A DNA stretch of 35,568 nt from a virus: IMG/VR virus record IMGVR_UViG_3300027733_000123, positions 1 to 35,568 of that record. The stretch is one strand, 5' to 3'. The notes beneath the pieces were generated by a model. That model was given only the letters and a program-made list of their open reading frames with translations. It ran no database searches and was not told the DNA's origin. Below, piece by piece: positions 5,329-30,439 of this stretch. Numbering within the stretch: position 1 is the stretch's first letter; each line of letters starts with the position of its first letter. The position numbers and the translations under genes are program-made.

Positions 5329-5531
5329 TACTAATATATAGGGAAATAATGAATGTTTGCAAAATAGAATAAGTGTTACCGATTTATATAAATATGTGAC
5401 AAAGTGATGGGCAATTCGGTTATATCTTGTAACATATAAAGGGTAAGATTTGTTACGAAATAGGTGCAAATGAATATAAAAGTAGTAATACTACCCTAAT
5501 AGCAAAAGATGTAAACTCTGCAAGTTTTGAT

Positions 5532-5553
5532 ATTACTCAATGGAGTGAGTAAT
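5532..5553. repeat. Inverted repeat, 8-bp stem
   Basis: ATTACTCA at 5532-5539 and TGAGTAAT at 5546-5553 are perfect reverse complements separated by 6 bases. It has no T-tract of terminator type. It could be a protein-binding dyad or an RNA hairpin in the leader of the portal operon. Confidence 0.6.
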
Positions 5554-5560
5554 TTTACTC

Positions 5561-5592
5561 AAAGTAAAATAGTAAAGCTATTATTTTACTTT
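5561..5592. repeat. Inverted repeat, 11-bp stem
   Basis: AAAGTAAAATA at 5561-5571 pairs perfectly with TATTTTACTTT at 5582-5592 across a 10-base loop. The stem is AT-rich, so as DNA it may be a dyad operator and as RNA only a moderately stable hairpin. It begins 7 bases after the previous inverted repeat. Confidence 0.6.
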
Positions 5593-5625
5593 ATCAATCA
5601 AAAGGTAAATATATAACTTGACAAA

Positions 5626-5654
5626 TGAGCCGAAAATGATTGATAAGCGGCTCA
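5626..5654. repeat. Inverted repeat TGAGCCG/CGGCTCA overlapping an operator-like motif
   Basis: TGAGCCG at 5626-5632 is the perfect reverse complement of CGGCTCA at 5648-5654, with 15 bases between. The right arm overlaps GATAAGCGG (5642-5650), the half-site found in pairs at the phage promoters near 16.6, 29.6 and 30.2 kb. Here only one clear half-site is present. Confidence 0.5.
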
Positions 5655-5757
5655 ATAATGATTAACAAATGTACATCATAAAGTGCCATTAATGACTCAT
5701 ATTGCCATCATTAGTGTCAAATAAGATACATTATGGTGGATATATATAACACAAAAA

Positions 5758-5783
5758 CCCCCACCTAGAGAACTAGGCAGGGG
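5758..5783 (-). terminator. Rho-independent terminator after the tail tube gene
   Basis: On the minus strand a GC-rich hairpin (CCCCTGCCTAG, loop TTCT, CTAGGTGGGGG) is followed at once by TTTTTG. It lies 25 bases past the stop of the 172-aa tail tube gene and separates the capsid operon from the portal operon. Confidence 0.85.
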
Positions 5784-5807
5784 AACTAACTATGAAAAAC
5801 TACAAAC

Positions 5808-16585: not shown

Positions 16586-16618
16586 CAAATATACTACTTG
16601 TAAACACCTTCTACCAAA
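16586..16618 (-). promoter_or_regulatory. Bacteroidota-type promoter of the post-terminase operon
   Basis: On the minus strand TTTG (16618-16615) and TATATTTG (16593-16586) are 21 bp apart, matching the primary Bacteroidota sigma-factor consensus (TTTG, 17-23 bp, TAnnTTTG). The expected transcript start is near 16582, about 18 bases before ATG 16564. The sequence between and around the boxes is clearly related to the promoters at 29549-29579 and 30133-30164. Confidence 0.8.
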
Positions 16619-16646: not shown

Positions 16647-16675
16647 GATGAGCGGTAAATATCAATGATAAGCGG
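16647..16675. promoter_or_regulatory. Paired operator-like motif, 20-bp spacing
   Basis: GATGAGCGG at 16647 and GATAAGCGG at 16667 are direct repeats spaced exactly 20 bp, two helical turns. The pair starts 30 bp upstream of the -33 box of the promoter at 16586-16618 and ends at the terminase stop codon. The same pair with the same spacing is found near 29.6, 30.2 and 30.3 kb. Confidence 0.7.
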
Positions 16676-17836
16676 TTATGCTAGGCTGTATCTGCCTGTT
16701 CCTCTCCTTGTATTGTAACTTGACCACGCTAATGCTAATGCCATTACACAATCATCGTGGAATCCGCTAGGTGCTGAATATCTAACTCCTGTACTTGTAA
16801 AGATATATTCAAAGATGTTTAATTCATCTACGATTACTCCATCAGGATACTTAATTTGTTTTTGTTGTATTGCAGCAGATAGCCCTTCCATTAATTGCTG
16901 CTTACTTGAACTCGTAAACCTTAACCCTTCTATTTGCATACCACTGCGTTGTAAATCCTCTAGTACAGGGTCTCCTACTCCTGTGCTATCTATTAAAGTA
17001 TGAGCCTTTGGTAATCGTTTAATGTTCTCTTTTGTATTATGCCAATCCATTTGGAATCTATCAAAGTAGCATACTTGCCCTAAATCATCCAACCCAACTA
17101 TAACTGTCCAATCCACAGACTTGGCAATATCTATACCAAATGATACAGGTATGCGACCACTCATAGGAGATATACATTTTCTAATGAACTCACTACCAAA
17201 AGGATTTGCACTATTCTCGGCAGGGTTTGCCATATATTCTTGCTCAAATACTGCGTGTGGTAATTGGAATTTAGCTGAATCTATTTCACTTGCAGGTATA
17301 GTTGGATTGTCATAAGTGCTAAATTTAAAACTCTCCCAATCAGTCTCACCGCCTTTCATAAATAAGCTATAAAAGTAGTTAGTGCCTTTAGGTGTAGATA
17401 AGAAGATAGCACCACCCTGATAATCAGTTAATGTAGGTCGTATTGAATTAAGCCAACCTTTCTCAAGGTCAGGTATAAAAGAAGCCTCATCCATAATTAC
17501 TTTATGAAACTTCAATCCTCTAAATGAATCAAGCCTTGTACCTGTAAAGAATCTAATCTTTCCCCCTGTTCTAAACTCAATGATTAAATCTGACCTATTA
17601 GTTTTGTATGCTCCATCAGGTAAGTGAGTACATAACTCATCAAAGAATACTTTGGATAGTAAAAATGTAGGAGTAACATAAGCAACTGACTTCCCCTCTA
17701 ATGCTTCTTTAATAGCAATAATTTGTGAAACTAAAGACTTCCCCCATCTTCTGCCACACATTAAAACAATAAACCTGCTATTTGATTCTAATACAGGTAA
17801 TTGAGTGCTATGGGGTTGTGGTAATATTATTTCCAT
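16676..17836 (-). CDS. terL: Terminase large subunit
   Basis: A 386-aa DNA-packaging motor. Walker A is GRRWGKS (residues 28-34), Walker B VIMDEA (113-118), and a SxTPKG coupling motif is present as LSTPKGTNYF. The C-terminal RNase H-like nuclease shows its acidic residues in GIDIAKSVDW, in LIDSTGVGDP and in the final DDCVMALALA. The length is typical of the short TerL forms seen in phages with HK97-like heads. It overlaps the small subunit gene by 29 bases. It cuts concatemers and pumps DNA through the portal. Confidence 0.95.
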   Translation of the reverse strand: MEIILPQPHSTQLPVLESNSRFIVLMCGRRWGKSLVSQIIAIKEALEGKSVAYVTPTFLLSKVFFDELCTHLPDGAYKTNRSDLIIEFRTGGKIRFFTGTRLDSFRGLKFHKVIMDEASFIPDLEKGWLNSIRPTLTDYQGGAIFLSTPKGTNYFYSLFMKGGETDWESFKFSTYDNPTIPASEIDSAKFQLPHAVFEQEYMANPAENSANPFGSEFIRKCISPMSGRIPVSFGIDIAKSVDWTVIVGLDDLGQVCYFDRFQMDWHNTKENIKRLPKAHTLIDSTGVGDPVLEDLQRSGMQIEGLRFTSSSKQQLMEGLSAAIQQKQIKYPDGVIVDELNIFEYIFTSTGVRYSAPSGFHDDCVMALALAWSSYNTRRGTGRYSLA

Positions 17837-18189: not shown

Positions 18190-18852
18190 TTATTGTTCTG
18201 TTTTATCTTTATTATAGTCTAACCTGATTTTAATTTGGCTCTTACTTTCCCACGCTTTTTTGTATTCAGCATCTGCAAACAATTTGCTAAATCCTGTTAT
18301 ATGTTTTAGTTTAAGCAACTCTTCAACTTCCATACCTAACTCGTTACATATTTCTTCATCTGCCCATCCGTTCTCTAACATCTTGAATACCATACTTGAC
18401 ATTCCTGTTATAGAGTGTTTTCCCCTTGCTCGGTTATGTCTAACTGTACTTGCCATTCTGTCGTTAATATCTTTCTTTATTACTACAATTGGCAACATAC
18501 CTAGATTTCTTTCATATATGTCTCTATTGTTTTTGCAGGTAAAGTATCTGTGGAATCCGTCTACTATTACATATTTCTTTATTGATTCATCATATATGGT
18601 TACAATAGGTTGGGTATAGCCATCGTGTTGGATTGAGTGATAAAGTAATTGCATCTCTGTCTTTGCTACGCTATTTGGGTTATAGTCATTAGGTTGTACC
18701 TCATCTATGCTAACCCATCTTATATAGTCAATCGGTTGTGAATTAACAGGGCTTAACTCCTCGTGAATCCATTTCCTTAACTCGGCTATAAAATCTAGTT
18801 TATTGTTTGCTTTCTCAAAATGCTCTAGTATTGTATCTTTAATCTGCTTCAT
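18190..18852 (-). CDS. ParB-fold protein, IbrB-like
   Basis: A 220-aa protein with a ParB/Srx-type N-domain at about residues 45-135: EVQPNDYNPNSVAKTEMQLL, SIQHDGYTQPIVTI, VDGFHRYFT in place of the GERR box, then STVRHNRARGKHS. A HTH-like segment (WADEEICNELGMEVEELLKL) follows. This composition matches IbrB-type proteins, which occur next to an IbrA PAPS-reductase-like partner, exactly as here (genes overlap by 14 bases). ParB-fold domains bind DNA and many bind or hydrolyse nucleotides. IbrA/IbrB were first linked to gene regulation in E. coli; their biochemical activity is not known to me. It lies directly upstream of terminase. Confidence 0.8.
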   Translation of the reverse strand: MKQIKDTILEHFEKANNKLDFIAELRKWIHEELSPVNSQPIDYIRWVSIDEVQPNDYNPNSVAKTEMQLLYHSIQHDGYTQPIVTIYDESIKKYVIVDGFHRYFTCKNNRDIYERNLGMLPIVVIKKDINDRMASTVRHNRARGKHSITGMSSMVFKMLENGWADEEICNELGMEVEELLKLKHITGFSKLFADAEYKKAWESKSQIKIRLDYNKDKTEQ

Positions 18853-19990
18853 TCTTTGCTTTATAATAATTGTAATATAATGGGTTTACTGTACCTTTTA
18901 GGAATCTTCTATAACCTTGTGCCTCTCCATTTCTTTCAAAGTTATCTATTGTAGTGCTATGATAATCATTAGATAAGATAGCGTTAACACATACTTTGTT
19001 TGCTCTATCCATTATCCATTTATGCTTATAAGTTGCATCTATCTTTTTAAAATACTTATAAAACTTCTCTTTGATTGTCTCATCACTTATTAGATTATCA
19101 CATAAATAGTTTCTATATTCAACCCAACTACTAAACATATATGGTATTTCCTTAATCCTAAATGCCTCACCTTTCATTTGTCCTGCCGTATTTATTCCTT
19201 TTATTCTATCAGTTAATTTAACCCAAGTATCAGCCTCAATTTCTTGTAAGAAAAACAACTGCTTAAATGCGGTTTCGTGATGTAAGTTACTTACTCTCAT
19301 ATCTAAAATAGAATAACCATACTGATACATATAGTCGTAAATCTTACAATACTTCCAATTGTTATCGTGTATGGCTTTCCATATATCTGTGTAACTCCAA
19401 TCATATAATGGATAAAATACATAATGCTCTAACTTTTTATTGAACACTTTGCCATAAGTAATGTCTTGATAAGTAGCTTGTTGTGTCATAGCCAATGCCC
19501 TTCTTGGACTCTCCTCTGCTCTTACTCCACCTAGTAATGCAGTCTTTTTATCATTGAACTCAACTTCAATTACTTTATCAAATAGTTTTGAGAATCTATC
19601 TGTGCCATATTTGTTTTCCTTTATAGATATGGGGTTTTGCTCTCTCATCCACTTCTTACCTTGCTCCCAAGTTATAAGCCATTCTTCTGTAGTGCTCGTG
19701 CTATTAAATAACTTTATGGGTATTTGTAACCAATATGGTATAACTTTTTTGTCATACATTATATTCTCAACATAGTTAATTACATTTTGCCATTCCGCTT
19801 CTTGGTCAATAAATACTACTGAAATTGGCAACCGATTCTTTTCTTCAGCAACCTTTAAAGCCATATTTAAAATAACTGTGCTATCCTTTCCACCTGAAAA
19901 AGCTACTACTACATTAGGGAACTCATCAAATAAATAACGGATTCTATCTAAAGCAGCTTCGTAAACATTTTGGTTTTTAAATACTTTCAT
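18839..19990 (-). CDS. PAPS reductase-family protein, IbrA/DUF3440-like
   Basis: A 383-aa member of the adenine-nucleotide alpha-hydrolase/PAPS reductase superfamily. The ATP-pyrophosphatase loop SGGKDS is at residues 32-37, and GGVRAEESPRRALAM is the second conserved block. The C-terminal half with YPLYDWSYTDIWKAIHDNNW is diagnostic of the DUF3440/IbrA group. The catalytic Cys motif of true PAPS reductases (ECGLH) is absent and scattered Cys residues do not form an obvious iron-sulphur site. It overlaps genes on both sides: DNA methyltransferase upstream and IbrB-like ParB downstream. Activity on DNA or nucleotides (adenylation, sulphur transfer) is inference by analogy with DndC-like relatives. 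Confidence 0.85.
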   Translation of the reverse strand: MKVFKNQNVYEAALDRIRYLFDEFPNVVVAFSGGKDSTVILNMALKVAEEKNRLPISVVFIDQEAEWQNVINYVENIMYDKKVIPYWLQIPIKLFNSTSTTEEWLITWEQGKKWMREQNPISIKENKYGTDRFSKLFDKVIEVEFNDKKTALLGGVRAEESPRRALAMTQQATYQDITYGKVFNKKLEHYVFYPLYDWSYTDIWKAIHDNNWKYCKIYDYMYQYGYSILDMRVSNLHHETAFKQLFFLQEIEADTWVKLTDRIKGINTAGQMKGEAFRIKEIPYMFSSWVEYRNYLCDNLISDETIKEKFYKYFKKIDATYKHKWIMDRANKVCVNAILSNDYHSTTIDNFERNGEAQGYRRFLKGTVNPLYYNYYKAKNEAD

Positions 19991-20519
19991 ACTTTGATAT
20001 TACTTTCATTAACTTTTCATACCTCTTTGGATTTAATTCATAACCTATATATTTAGCACCGCTTTTATAAACTGCTTCAGCTGTTTTGCCTATACCTGCA
20101 AAAGGGTCAAATACTATATTTGGTTTTAGGCTTCTTACTACATAATTAACAATATTAAATCCTTTGGGATTATCAGGCAATTTAAGCGAAGTATTAAATG
20201 AAATGATATTGTATGGCAATCCATTTTTTTGATGTCCTAAAATTGTTTCTATATGTTTATGACCACTATTCTCAAAATGACTTATAACTCTTTCTGTTCC
20301 TAAAATAGAATACTCAACAAATGCAGGTTTATTACAATTACTTAAAGATGCTAATTTATTTAGTATTAAATCTATATCATTTTCAACTATTAATCCTGTA
20401 TCTTTTTTTAATTGTGTTTGAAAAAACTTAACCATTCTGTCTTCCCATGGTGGGTCGCAATAAAGTATATCATATTCAGGAAAAAAATCAACTTTTATTA
20501 TATCAATGTTTTTATGCAT
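19977..20519 (-). CDS. Small DNA methyltransferase, DPPW type
   Basis: A 180-aa amino-methyltransferase. The catalytic motif DPPW is at residues 22-25 and the SAM-binding motif DPFAGIG at 138-144, so the motif order is IV before I, as in beta-class DNA N6-adenine or N4-cytosine methylases. The small size leaves only a short target-recognition region between them (residues 40-125). DPPW favours adenine as target. The gene overlaps both neighbours by a few bases and is directly upstream of the IbrA-like gene. A role in protecting phage DNA from restriction, or as part of a larger modification pathway, is inferred. Confidence 0.85.
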   Translation of the reverse strand: MHKNIDIIKVDFFPEYDILYCDPPWEDRMVKFFQTQLKKDTGLIVENDIDLILNKLASLSNCNKPAFVEYSILGTERVISHFENSGHKHIETILGHQKNGLPYNIISFNTSLKLPDNPKGFNIVNYVVRSLKPNIVFDPFAGIGKTAEAVYKSGAKYIGYELNPKRYEKLMKVISKYESI

Positions 20520-21096
20520 AATAGTTTTTTATGTAATTTTTATCATAAATGTCAGAAGTTCTTTTAATGCTATTAGCGTTTCCCATTGATGAATTTATAT
20601 TTATATTGTGTTGTATAATACTAGGCAAATGTACATACGCTTTCCTTTTGTAGTGTTTTAAATAAGCTGCGACAAATACATCATCCCATTTTATTTGAGT
20701 ATTAATTTTTAAATATTCTTTCATTTCATCTACTGCTCTCCGACTAAACACAGTACCTTGTAACCATAAAAAATTTGGGAACTCACTATATTTGATTCCT
20801 TTTTCATATTGGCTTTTAAGAAATGCCCTTCTTGGTGCAAATAAAGATAATACATCTATGTCCTTTTCTTTCATATCATTTTTAATTACTTCAAGATATT
20901 TCTCAAATTGTTCAGGAATTATTATATCATCTTGTAAATGTAATTTATAATCATCAAATGGAATATTTAGCATTTGAACAAAAGAATTAAAACAACCATT
21001 CATTCCATAATCATAATATACTTCTGCTTTGATTTGGTTAATAATTTTTACTACATTACTTTCTCTATCCTTAATAGCTTGTATCGTTATTTTCAT
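20512..21096 (-). CDS. Glycosyltransferase-like protein (GT-A type)
   Basis: A 194-aa protein resembling short GT-A glycosyltransferases: an N-terminal MKITIQAIKDRESNVVKIIN region, a DxD-like LQDDI at residues 54-58, and WDDVFVAAYLKHYKRKAYVH near the end, similar to acceptor-proximal segments in such enzymes. It is short for a full glycosyltransferase and has no membrane segment. It sits between two methyltransferases in an overlapping operon. Possible acceptors are virion protein, host glycan or modified DNA bases; the sequence does not decide. Confidence 0.65.
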   Translation of the reverse strand: MKITIQAIKDRESNVVKIINQIKAEVYYDYGMNGCFNSFVQMLNIPFDDYKLHLQDDIIIPEQFEKYLEVIKNDMKEKDIDVLSLFAPRRAFLKSQYEKGIKYSEFPNFLWLQGTVFSRRAVDEMKEYLKINTQIKWDDVFVAAYLKHYKRKAYVHLPSIIQHNININSSMGNANSIKRTSDIYDKNYIKNYYA

Positions 21097-21880
21097 AAGT
21101 AACTATTTTATAATTATTAAAAATAAAGCCATCTTGATTTGATGTATAGTAATTAGTATTTATATTTAAATTTTCGTGAGTAATTGGGAAATACCCATCT
21201 TTAAAATACATTAAATATGCCTTACCTCCTACACTTAACATTGACTTAACTCTATGTAAAGATGTTGGATTTATATATGAAGGACTTCCAAATAATGAAA
21301 TAATTGTGTCAAACTTTAAAGGAGTATAAAAATCTTCAAATGCACAATTTAATACATCTTTGTTTGTAAAGTTTTGCTTTAATGTTTTTAATTGATTTAT
21401 AGAAATATCAATGCCTAGATATTTTTCCGAATTAATATAATTTAATGCCATACCATAACCGCAGCCAATGTCTAATACACTTCCTTTTATATCTAACTTT
21501 TTAAATAATTCTAACTCCTCTAAATGACTTTCTTCATTATTAAACATTTCAAAATACTTGTCAGCTATTGTATCATATTCTGTTTTATATTCTACTACTG
21601 CTCTATTAATTAAAATAGTTTCATTAATTGGAGCTCCCATAGTCCAATATTTATAGCCATTTAATTTAAAAATTTGGTATGGCTTTTTCCAAAACCATTC
21701 TATTTCGCTATGCTCTCTTATATATTTTACTACATTATTAAACAATATATCATTTTTCCAATTTTCTCTCAATGTATATGCGTGTGGATTTCTTATTGCA
21801 GTTTTAGCGTTCTTAAAATATTGACCTAATAATGTTTCAGCTACTTGTTCAAATATCATATTGTAATTATTTTCTAACAT
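21071..21880 (-). CDS. SAM-dependent methyltransferase, class I
   Basis: A 269-aa protein with a clear Rossmann methyltransferase core from about residue 130: VLDIGCGYG (135-143) is motif I, LGIDIS is the acidic post-I strand, and FDTIISLFGSPSYI is motif IV. The order resembles small-molecule or protein methylases rather than DNA methylases (no NPPY/DPPW). The N-terminal 100 residues (RNPHAYTLRENWKN, YQIFKLNGYKYWTMGAPINE) are unusual and might bind substrate. Overlaps of 14 bases with the ParB-like gene and 26 with the glycosyltransferase-like gene suggest a shared pathway. Confidence 0.8.
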   Translation of the reverse strand: MLENNYNMIFEQVAETLLGQYFKNAKTAIRNPHAYTLRENWKNDILFNNVVKYIREHSEIEWFWKKPYQIFKLNGYKYWTMGAPINETILINRAVVEYKTEYDTIADKYFEMFNNEESHLEELELFKKLDIKGSVLDIGCGYGMALNYINSEKYLGIDISINQLKTLKQNFTNKDVLNCAFEDFYTPLKFDTIISLFGSPSYINPTSLHRVKSMLSVGGKAYLMYFKDGYFPITHENLNINTNYYTSNQDGFIFNNYKIVTYENNDTSY

Positions 21881-27461: not shown

Positions 27462-27887
27462 TTAATTCTGTACAAAGGTATTAAAATTTTTGATTTCATT
27501 TTCAACTTCATCAATTTTATTTTTATACCAATCTTCAGTTGTGATTAAATTTCTAGCAGTTGATATATTGTAAAGGACTGTAGTATGGTCGCTTACTCCT
27601 ATGTATGGTGCTATTTCTTTTAAAGATAATGATGTATGCTTTTTTAAGATATAAGCTGCTGCTTTTCTTGCGAAGACTGTATTTTGCATTCTATTCTTTG
27701 CTAATACATCCGTATCAAAAATTTCTTCAACTAATCCAACTAGCTTTTTCATTGTAACTCTGTTATTGTTTCTATTACTTTCATCCTTTTCAATTAGATT
27801 ATGTGCAACTAAAGTATTTTTTAATTGTCTTAAATTTTTCTTTTGTGCTAAATAATAATCTATAATGTTCGTTTCTATTGTTTGCAT
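27462..27887 (-). CDS. Stand-alone DnaA domain IV-like protein
   Basis: A 141-aa protein. Residues 60-120 match the DNA-binding domain IV of DnaA: FARKAAAYILKKHTSLSLKE, IAPYIGVSDH and the signature DHTTVLY at 100-106. The AAA+ ATPase domain of DnaA is absent; the N-terminal 60 residues are a helical region of unknown role. It could occupy DnaA boxes or the phage origin and so help or block host DnaA. It starts two bases after the 63-aa gene and is followed by a structured gap before the initiator gene. Confidence 0.8.
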   Translation of the reverse strand: MQTIETNIIDYYLAQKKNLRQLKNTLVAHNLIEKDESNRNNNRVTMKKLVGLVEEIFDTDVLAKNRMQNTVFARKAAAYILKKHTSLSLKEIAPYIGVSDHTTVLYNISTARNLITTEDWYKNKIDEVENEIKNFNTFVQN

Positions 27888-27889
27888 AA

Positions 27890-28081
27890 TTAAAATTCTA
27901 TATCATCTTTGGGTTTATAATTGTCTTCATAAATTTGATAATCAGGCTGATTGTCGGCTTTCTTATATGTATTGACCCACATATTATACTTCTTGCCTTC
28001 AATGCTAAAATTGATTACTTCACCTTTAGGTGTTTGTTTTTTCCACGCACCATACTTCTTTTTTACTTGTTCGTTTTCCAT
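27890..28081 (-). CDS. Unknown 63-aa basic protein
   Basis: MENEQVKKKYGAWKKQTPKG opens a small Lys-rich protein with a beta-like middle (EVINFSIEGKKYNMWVNTYK) and an acidic end. It overlaps the HTH gene by one base (stop/start) and starts two bases from the DnaA-like start region. Similar proteins are present in Bacteroidota phage early regions without known function. Nucleic-acid binding is possible from its charge only. Confidence 0.65.
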   Translation of the reverse strand: MENEQVKKKYGAWKKQTPKGEVINFSIEGKKYNMWVNTYKKADNQPDYQIYEDNYKPKDDIEF

Positions 28082-28293
28082 TAGTTTTTATTTTTAAATA
28101 GTGTATATTCTGCAACAAATTTAGAGTTGCGTTGACTTCCTACATTAACAATCTTTGTTTTAATGTTGTGTCCTTCATCACGAAGGTTAAAAATTAATGC
28201 AGCTAATCTCATTGTACCATATTTTTTTAACGCTACTAATGGTGTAAGCGGTTGACTTTTTAGGTGGTTAAGCACCATTGTTTGTTGACTCAT
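28081..28293 (-). CDS. Winged-helix DNA-binding protein
   Basis: A 70-aa protein whose whole length matches the compact wHTH of the HTH_39 type: TMVLNHLKSQPLTPLVALKK, YGTMRLAALIFNLRDEGHNI, then VAEYTLFKN as the wing strand. The N-terminus overlaps the preceding gene by 26 bases. It is a good candidate for a DNA-binding regulator, for instance of the paired operator motifs seen at 16.6, 29.6 and 30.2 kb, but no direct link is visible in the sequence. Confidence 0.75.
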   Translation of the reverse strand: MSQQTMVLNHLKSQPLTPLVALKKYGTMRLAALIFNLRDEGHNIKTKIVNVGSQRNSKFVAEYTLFKNKN

Positions 28294-29548: not shown

Positions 29549-29579
29549 CAAATATACAAGTTGTTAAAATGATTTCCAA
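29549..29579 (-). promoter_or_regulatory. Bacteroidota-type promoter before the 77-aa gene
   Basis: On the minus strand CTTG/TTG (29579-29577) and TATATTTG (29556-29549) are 20 bp apart. The sequence around it is closely similar to the promoters at 16586-16618 and 30133-30164. It should drive the operon through ERF to the replication genes. Confidence 0.8.
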
Positions 29580-29588
29580 GTAAATTGT

Positions 29589-29617
29589 GATGAGCGGTAA
29601 TATAACTTGATAAGTGG
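29589..29617. promoter_or_regulatory. Paired operator-like motif, 20-bp spacing
   Basis: GATGAGCGG at 29589 and GATAAGTGG at 29609, 20 bp apart. The near half-site begins 10 bp from the -33 box, whereas at 16.6 and 30.2 kb the distance is 30 bp, so the helical phase is kept (a 20-bp difference). Confidence 0.7.
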
Positions 29618-29619
29618 TA

Positions 29620-30102
29620 TTAAAAATTAAAGTCATAAAATTTATATGGTGTATCTCTCATTGTAAATCTACCCTTACCCCAACCATTCTTTGCTAAATT
29701 CAATCTTCTTATTTCATTTGTTTCATTGCTAAAGTACTCATACTTTTGATTGTGATTATCAGCGTAGTGTCCTGCAAATCCACCTGCATAAAATTCTTTT
29801 GGGCTTTCTATTGTCTCTGTCCTTAATTCTCTTATTTCTACTACATTAGGGCTTACTTGTCTTATAACTTCATAGGCTCTTACATCAGTATAAAGTCTTT
29901 CACTTATATACTTTTTAACAGGGTACTTTAATTTAGGTCTAGCATCAAGGTATTTTTTAAGTCTTGTTTTAGCATCACTTAAAAATAAACATACTTCCGT
30001 TAATTCATCAAGTGTGTACTTTTGAGCAACTTCACATAATTGTTCAATTGTAATTTGCCCTTTTCTTAATTTGTTTTCAGCAAGTAAAATTTCGTTGTTC
30101 AT
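29620..30102 (-). CDS. Conserved phage early protein, 160 aa
   Basis: The ATG at 30102 (MNNEILLAENKLRKGQITIE) is chosen because the frame start at 30135 lies inside the promoter. The N-terminal 60 residues are helical. The C-terminal half has a beta-rich unit with SERLYTDVRAYEVIRQVSPN and EFYAGGFAGHYADNHNQKYE, a pattern common in small phage proteins of unknown function. It is the first gene of the minus-strand early region and reads away from the plus gene at 30440. Confidence 0.7.
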   Translation of the reverse strand: MNNEILLAENKLRKGQITIEQLCEVAQKYTLDELTEVCLFLSDAKTRLKKYLDARPKLKYPVKKYISERLYTDVRAYEVIRQVSPNVVEIRELRTETIESPKEFYAGGFAGHYADNHNQKYEYFSNETNEIRRLNLAKNGWGKGRFTMRDTPYKFYDFNF

Positions 30103-30132: not shown

Positions 30133-30164
30133 CAAATATACAAGGTATAAACACTATTTCCAAA
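30133..30164 (-). promoter_or_regulatory. Bacteroidota-type early promoter, minus strand
   Basis: TTTG (30164-30161) and TATATTTG (30140-30133) are separated by 20 bp. The predicted start is close to 30129, about 27 bases before ATG 30102. It matches the consensus for Bacteroidota housekeeping sigma and is similar along its length to the promoters near 16.6 and 29.6 kb. Confidence 0.82.
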
Positions 30165-30192: not shown

Positions 30193-30221
30193 GATGAACG
30201 GCAAATAGAATGGATGAGTGG
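30193..30221. promoter_or_regulatory. Paired operator-like motif, 20-bp spacing
   Basis: GATGAACGG at 30193 and GATGAGTGG at 30213, 20 bp apart. The near half-site begins 30 bp from the -33 box of the minus promoter, as at 16.6 kb. Confidence 0.65.
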
Positions 30222-30292: not shown

Positions 30293-30321
30293 CCGCTTAT
30301 CCTTGAATATTACCGCTTGTG
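30293..30321. promoter_or_regulatory. Inverted paired operator-like motif overlapping the plus promoter
   Basis: On the plus strand CCGCTTATC (30293-30301) and CCGCTTGTG (30313-30321) are the reverse complements of GATAAGCGG and CACAAGCGG, again 20 bp apart. They overlap the plus-strand promoter boxes, so a bound protein could repress the plus gene. Confidence 0.65.
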
Positions 30322-30332
30322 TAATAAATTTG
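30303..30332 (+). promoter_or_regulatory. Plus-strand promoter
   Basis: TTG at 30303-30305, 19 bp, then TAAATTTG at 30325-30332. The transcript would start near 30336 and have a leader of about 100 bases before ATG 30440. Another possible -33 at 30350-30352 has no matching -7 box. Confidence 0.6.
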
Positions 30333-30439
30333 GATATGTCGTTAATAAGTTGTATATTGTTTTATAATTAAGAAATTAATTATGCTCTTTGAAATTAACC
30401 AAAAACAAGTGAGACACACTATAAACTGTAAAATCAATT

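Follow-up and report, generated by a model that had tools for sequence, protein, structure and literature searches.

Probable LytTR-type paired sites in the promoters of uncultured Bacteroidota-type phages suggest a link to host signaling

Phages are known to carry binding sites for the response regulators of their hosts: sites for CtrA have been described in alphaproteobacterial phages, for Spo0A in phi29 (PMC9437464), and for PhoB in cyanophages (PMC10976474). The phages considered here resemble these cases in that their promoters bear sites for what appears to be a host two-component regulator; however, the CtrA, Spo0A and PhoB systems involve other regulator families and other hosts and are backed by binding data, whereas the present site is predicted from sequence. 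That phages draw on the response regulators of their hosts is established; the LytTR family in that role appears to be new, in that the open-licence literature searched yielded no description of LytTR sites at the promoters of phages. LytTR sites consist of two repeats of 9-11 nt, 11-13 nt apart (PMC4847170). The E. coli YehT/BtsR site oligonucleotide contains ACCGCTTA and ACCACTCA, 21 bp apart (PMC4847170), AlgR sites include CCGTTCGTC and CCGTTCATC (PMC4064291), and AgrA activates from repeats centered near -60 (PMC4227749). The Bacteroidota promoter has the form TTTG/TANNTTTG, with the first T of the latter at -12 (PMC6847099).

How does the phage locus compare? With 35,568 bases and 32% G+C, the window (the whole stretch of DNA that was analyzed) makes up one whole IMG/VR viral record. 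It contains four pairs of a 9-nt repeat spaced exactly 20 bp from start to start (Table 1), which read CCRCTYATC-N11-CCRCTYATC in the sense of transcription; 9-nt repeats with an 11-nt spacer are likewise found in the relatives. A preliminary description had reported these four pairs; they are present where it placed them, and 300 dinucleotide shuffles of the window give a mean of 0.007 spacing-20 pairs and a maximum of one. The single 9-mer is only weakly enriched (20 matches in the window vs 12.9 expected), so the signal is carried by the pairing. Of the eight half-sites, two deviate from the consensus, both in the proximal position: CCGTTCATC of pair 30193 has one mismatch, and CCGCTTGTG of the plus-strand pair has two; this CCGCTTATC/CCGCTTGTG pair is nevertheless unchanged in relatives G037 and G045. 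Many equally spaced pairs in coding DNA would have spoken against the proposal of the preliminary description; the coding DNA of the window holds none at the 20-bp spacing. The sole further pair-like match at a spacing of 10-40 in the window, the element at 5624-5650, may be a degenerate site or chance.

Table 1. Putative LytTR-type pairs, predicted promoters and neighboring genes in the window
Feature	Position	Strand	Remark
Pair-like element CCGCTTATC-N9-CGGCTCATT	5624-5650	-	18-bp spacing; within intergenic stretch 5470-5807
Promoter TTGG-N20-TATATTTG	16586..16617	-	-7 box 53 bp from pair 16647
LytTR-type pair CCGCTTATC-N11-CCGCTCATC	16647..16675	-	Directly behind the terminase large-subunit stop
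Terminase large subunit	16676..17836	-	Marker for finding relatives
ParB-like protein, PAPS reductase and methyltransferase-like genes	18190-21880	-	Block upstream of the terminase genes
Sigma-like protein, 160 aa	25157-25639	-	Conserved in 18/28 phages; no convincing Pfam match
Free-standing DnaA domain IV protein (DnaA-C)	27462-27887	-	PF08299, 2.6e-13; in 18/28 related phages
HTH_39 protein	28081-28293
Promoter TTGG-N19-TATATTTG	29549..29579	-	-7 box 32 bp from pair 29589; register of cellular LytTR promoters
LytTR-type pair CCACTTATC-N11-CCGCTCATC	29589..29617	-	Upstream of the replication-gene operon
p29620, protein without assigned function	29620..30102	-	160 aa from its ATG
Promoter TTGG-N19-TATATTTG	30133..30163	-	-7 box 52 bp from pair 30193
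LytTR-type pair CCACTCATC-N11-CCGTTCATC	30193..30221	-	Upstream of p29620
LytTR-type pair CCGCTTATC-N11-CCGCTTGTG	30293..30321	+	Second half-site off consensus, conserved in relatives
Promoter-like TTGG-N19-TATATTGT	30330..30360	+	Serves the only plus-strand gene; 31 bp from pair 30293
Plus-strand protein, 100 aa	30440..30742	+	Sole plus-strand gene

With 9-nt repeats and an 11-nt spacer, the window pairs follow the LytTR repeat rule (PMC4847170), and their half-sites match the BtsR and AlgR sites nearly letter for letter. Like the site of BtsR (YehT) at the yjiY/btsT promoter of E. coli, the phage pairs are a direct repeat of ACCRCTYA; the E. coli site differs in its period (21 vs 20), in residing in a cell rather than a phage, and in serving a promoter that is not of the TAnnTTTG type. 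The 9-mers of Pseudomonas aeruginosa AlgR recur as CCGTTCATC/CCGTTCGTC variants in G025, G031, G037, G039, G045 and G048, where the AlgR-like form of the half-site in relatives is CCGTTCRTC; unlike the phage pairs, AlgR sites are often not spaced direct repeats (PMC4064291). Together with the cellular pairs described below, these likenesses make the pair very probably a LytTR-type response-regulator site. Since the window encodes a DnaA domain IV protein, a DnaA-box reading was also considered and rejected: CCGCTTATC misfits TTATNCACA, and 10 of 28 phages lack the gene.

All four window pairs stand upstream of a promoter of the Bacteroidota type (TTTG/TAnnTTTG) at one of two distances, 31-32 or 52-53 bp, which form two registers, and every pair points towards its own promoter, in keeping with the common orientation proposed earlier. 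The distance from the end of the pair to the TTG of the -33 box is about 29, 9, 29 and 8 bp for pairs 16647, 29589, 30193 and 30293, respectively, which bears out the "10 or 30" of the preliminary description. Across the phages, the pair mostly lies 31-33 or 50-53 bp from TAnnTTTG, and in a few cases 40-43 bp, a distribution consistent with binding on one DNA face. The promoter-like element of the plus-strand gene is kept in G037, G039 and G045. In two relatives (L197 and L192), the TATATTTG promoter is kept behind the terminase gene and the pair is missing.

The genes downstream are of several kinds. Pair 16647 lies at the promoter of the next gene block, which comprises small ORFs and then structural genes, among them those for the portal, a virion structural protein and the head protease. 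The operon behind pair 29589 holds small ORFs and the genes for ERF, HTH_39, DnaA-C and the replication initiator. The plus-strand protein matches no Pfam or PHROG family and has five viral relatives that are 71-87% identical; its predicted structure (mean pLDDT 68.8) has an alpha-beta-alpha-beta-beta order and is of too low confidence to support a fold search. A search of 24 viral records turned up no integrase, and thus the phages look virulent.

Is the pair a peculiarity of one record? An exact pattern scan of IMG/VR matched at least 118 stretches. To avoid circularity, 86 viral loci were picked by their terminase or p29620 protein rather than by the motif: loose pairs at these loci have a spacing of 20 in 65 instances (54 loci), and the only other spacings within 9-60 are 22, 40 and 60 (3, 2 and 2 times). 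The motif scan of related phages that the preliminary description had called for finds the pair in 46 of 49 viral records, against 0 for a reversed-pattern control. Scanned in full, 28 phage genomes yield 66 pairs in 27 of them, and 63 of the 66 are intergenic though about 92% of the sequence is coding. The most frequent position is 1-10 bp behind the stop codon of the terminase large subunit (TerL) gene, where 39 of 63 distinct loci carry the pair (38 perfect in its loose form and one with a single mismatch); the remaining 24 loci have four or more mismatches, so presence of the pair is bimodal, and its absence there shows that it is not obligatory. The logo of 152 sites is TTTACCRCTYATC twice, with a conserved ACA behind the second half. 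Half-sites also occur three or four in tandem at 20-bp steps (G009, G011 and G035), and G009 and G035 both lack the terminase family, placing the sites in several unrelated phages. A consensus query of 50,697 records turned up no named phage with the pair; the best match of TerL is about 34%, and the capsid protein has no match.

Two of these genomes deserve mention on their own account. G035 (L309-L310), a 76-kb phage without the terminase family of the window, has four tandem half-sites at 20-bp steps before one promoter (21397-21465). The densest case seen is phage G025 (L302-L304), whose 41.8 kb hold seven pairs; most are CCACTCATC, and all stand about 32 bp from the -7 box. The letters of the half-sites co-vary weakly within one phage (two of six permutation tests give p 0.01-0.02); given the weak signal, a match of co-varying half-sites to one host regulator was not counted as evidence.

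The same pair exists in cells. When 84,980 genomes of bacteria and archaea were scanned for the pair pattern, 51 stretches matched, and 24 of the pairs lie in Bacteroidota and the neighboring FCB groups. A TTTG at offset 32, which lies outside the search pattern, accompanies 14 of these 24 pairs (the next best offset has 3) and 0 of the 27 sites of other phyla; this 32-bp register is that of window pair 29589. Promoter registers are two in the main among phages and mainly one at cellular sites. The cellular pairs precede or adjoin genes for a LytS-type kinase and a LytTR regulator, seven of which were checked with Pfam as receiver plus LytTR. In 12 of 15 FCB genomes, themselves found via the pair pattern, a LytTR gene lies on the same contig no more than about 3.5 kb from the pair (P about 1e-16, based on 279 LytTR domains in 78.2 Mb, or 2.8% expected per 8-kb neighborhood; distances are by contig coordinates, except that those for L211, L237, L243 and L251 come directly from the locus). 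In Saprospiraceae, Salinivirgaceae and Melioribacter, the LytS/LytTR operons (L241, L237, L211 and L247) share the pair and its 20-bp period with the phages and mostly have the same 32 bp to TAnnTTTG; they differ in that a LytTR gene is in or near the operon, whereas the phages carry the site but no recognizable LytTR gene. At L241, a Saprospiraceae locus, the pair is followed by genes for a secreted alpha/beta hydrolase, the kinase and LytTR, in that order, and this is apparently an uncharacterized autoregulated operon. Exact-form pairs are rare across the phylum (with the gap left free, they occur in 20 of 395 genomes, and few of those have period 20 or 21), and variable-gap scans of 395 phylum and 248 family genomes give few matches, with periods 20 and 21 the commonest.

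Two further features of the cellular loci were seen. L267 and L269 on the one hand and L268 on the other are close kinase/LytTR operons in which the repeat period is 20 vs 21 and both half-sites are retained. At eight loci, mostly from Saprospiraceae (L241, L217, L219, L220, L221, L223, L229 and L255), a promoter with the pair stands before a gene for a secreted alpha/beta hydrolase.

If the phages have the site, who makes the regulator? The LytTR domain (PF04397) goes undetected in the window at thresholds up to E 10, and at E 0.1 in 49 viral records, which are partly fragments; it is found in 15 of 15 pair-bearing FCB genomes, with 4 to 43 matches each. A 28-genome comparison, with 27 genomes carrying the pair, reveals no protein family common to all pair-bearing phages: terminase is present in 26, ERF in 20, DnaA-C and the sigma-like protein in 18 each, and HTH_39 in 10. 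The preliminary description proposed a phage-encoded regulator that binds two sites on one face of the DNA. Two half-sites on one face are retained here, given the fixed spacing and registers about two turns apart; the phage origin is not, as its candidates (HTH_39, the sigma-like and the plus-strand proteins) fail the presence test with 10 of 28, 18 of 28 and five viral relatives, respectively, and the LytTR evidence favors the host. A host-made LytTR regulator is the simplest reading and the best fit, and it probably acts as an activator; that the pairs are docking sites for such a regulator we consider likely. Weighing against it are the two main registers of the phages next to mainly one in cells, the rarity of exact-form pairs in the phylum, the selection of the FCB genomes by the pattern itself, and the 24 TerL loci that have no pair.

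Several other explanations have to be set against this one. A regulator encoded by the phage itself would find ready candidates in HTH_39, DnaA-C and the sigma-like protein, DNA-binding or sigma-like products of the operon behind pair 29589, or in the plus-strand gene, which runs divergently and whose own promoter carries a pair. This is improbable: none of the four is present in all pair-bearing phages, the low-confidence model of the plus-strand protein is not LytTR-like, pairs occur in G009 and G035, which miss even the terminase family, and beside the LytTR genes of cells stands the same pair, again in the 32-bp register. With many small proteins of the phages unannotated and several records perhaps incomplete, there would be room for a phage LytTR-like protein that was acquired together with the sites and has diverged too far for PF04397, or whose gene lies beyond the fragments; the failure of that profile at permissive thresholds and the lack of a shared family make this more doubtful still. 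Direct repeats that so often follow TerL immediately might also be replication iterons or a packaging signal rather than promoter elements. We regard this as very unlikely: each window pair has, and points to, a promoter at a fixed register, which argues against iterons, and pairs also precede unrelated genes and stand in cellular operons, which argues against a packaging signal.

The host-made regulator could work as follows. From what computation shows, namely the pairs and their conservation, the registers, the identity of the half-sites, the cellular LytTR neighbors and the lack of a detectable phage LytTR, we infer that a regulator binds the pairs, comes from the host and activates rather than represses. 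A LytTR dimer would sit on two direct repeats 20 bp, or about two helical turns, apart, and thus on one DNA face. With TAnnTTTG starting at -12, the near register (offset 31-32) would place the pair at about -73 to -45, and the far register (offset 50-53) at about -94 to -65; the two registers, two turns apart, would preserve the face. From this position, which is upstream of the -33 box but on its side of the helix, the regulator would meet RNA polymerase from behind, where activators usually sit, and could touch and activate it. The state of host LytS/LytTR signaling would then be passed on to three phage targets: the replication-gene promoter, the promoter behind terminase that serves the structural genes, and the divergent promoter pair. 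The main rival to activation is repression or delay of the phage by the host regulator, which would act as a "wait" signal with precedents in Spo0A in phi29 and in the proposed CtrA "lytic deferment" (PMC9437464); the divergent promoters at 30193/30293 would permit joint control. Repression seems to us the less likely sign, although a real possibility: the pairs, in their phased registers, leave the -33 box wholly free and stand upstream of it, a position that would favor activation, and the use of the same 32-bp register at LytS/LytTR operons points the same way.

Taken at face value, the sites suggest that a large group of uncultured Bacteroidota-type phages ties its genes to host signaling via LytTR docking sites. 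On balance, we lean towards a broader picture, in which widespread, virulent-looking phages of this kind use host LytS/LytTR as a switch for replication and late structural operons, the course of infection follows the LytS signal, and lineages employ BtsR-like or AlgR-like site variants, perhaps matched to different host regulators. If true, these phages would read host signaling through a regulator family that is numerous in the FCB genomes tested (4 to 43 domains each), and one more regulator fold would join the short list of host response regulators borrowed by phages. The rule of motif plus register (pair, 31-32 or 50-53 bp, TAnnTTTG) would serve to locate promoters under LytTR control, both in cells and in phages, and the regulatory link would be testable by one gel shift. 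For phages that have no cultured relative, it would offer a handle on host assignment and on the timing of infection.
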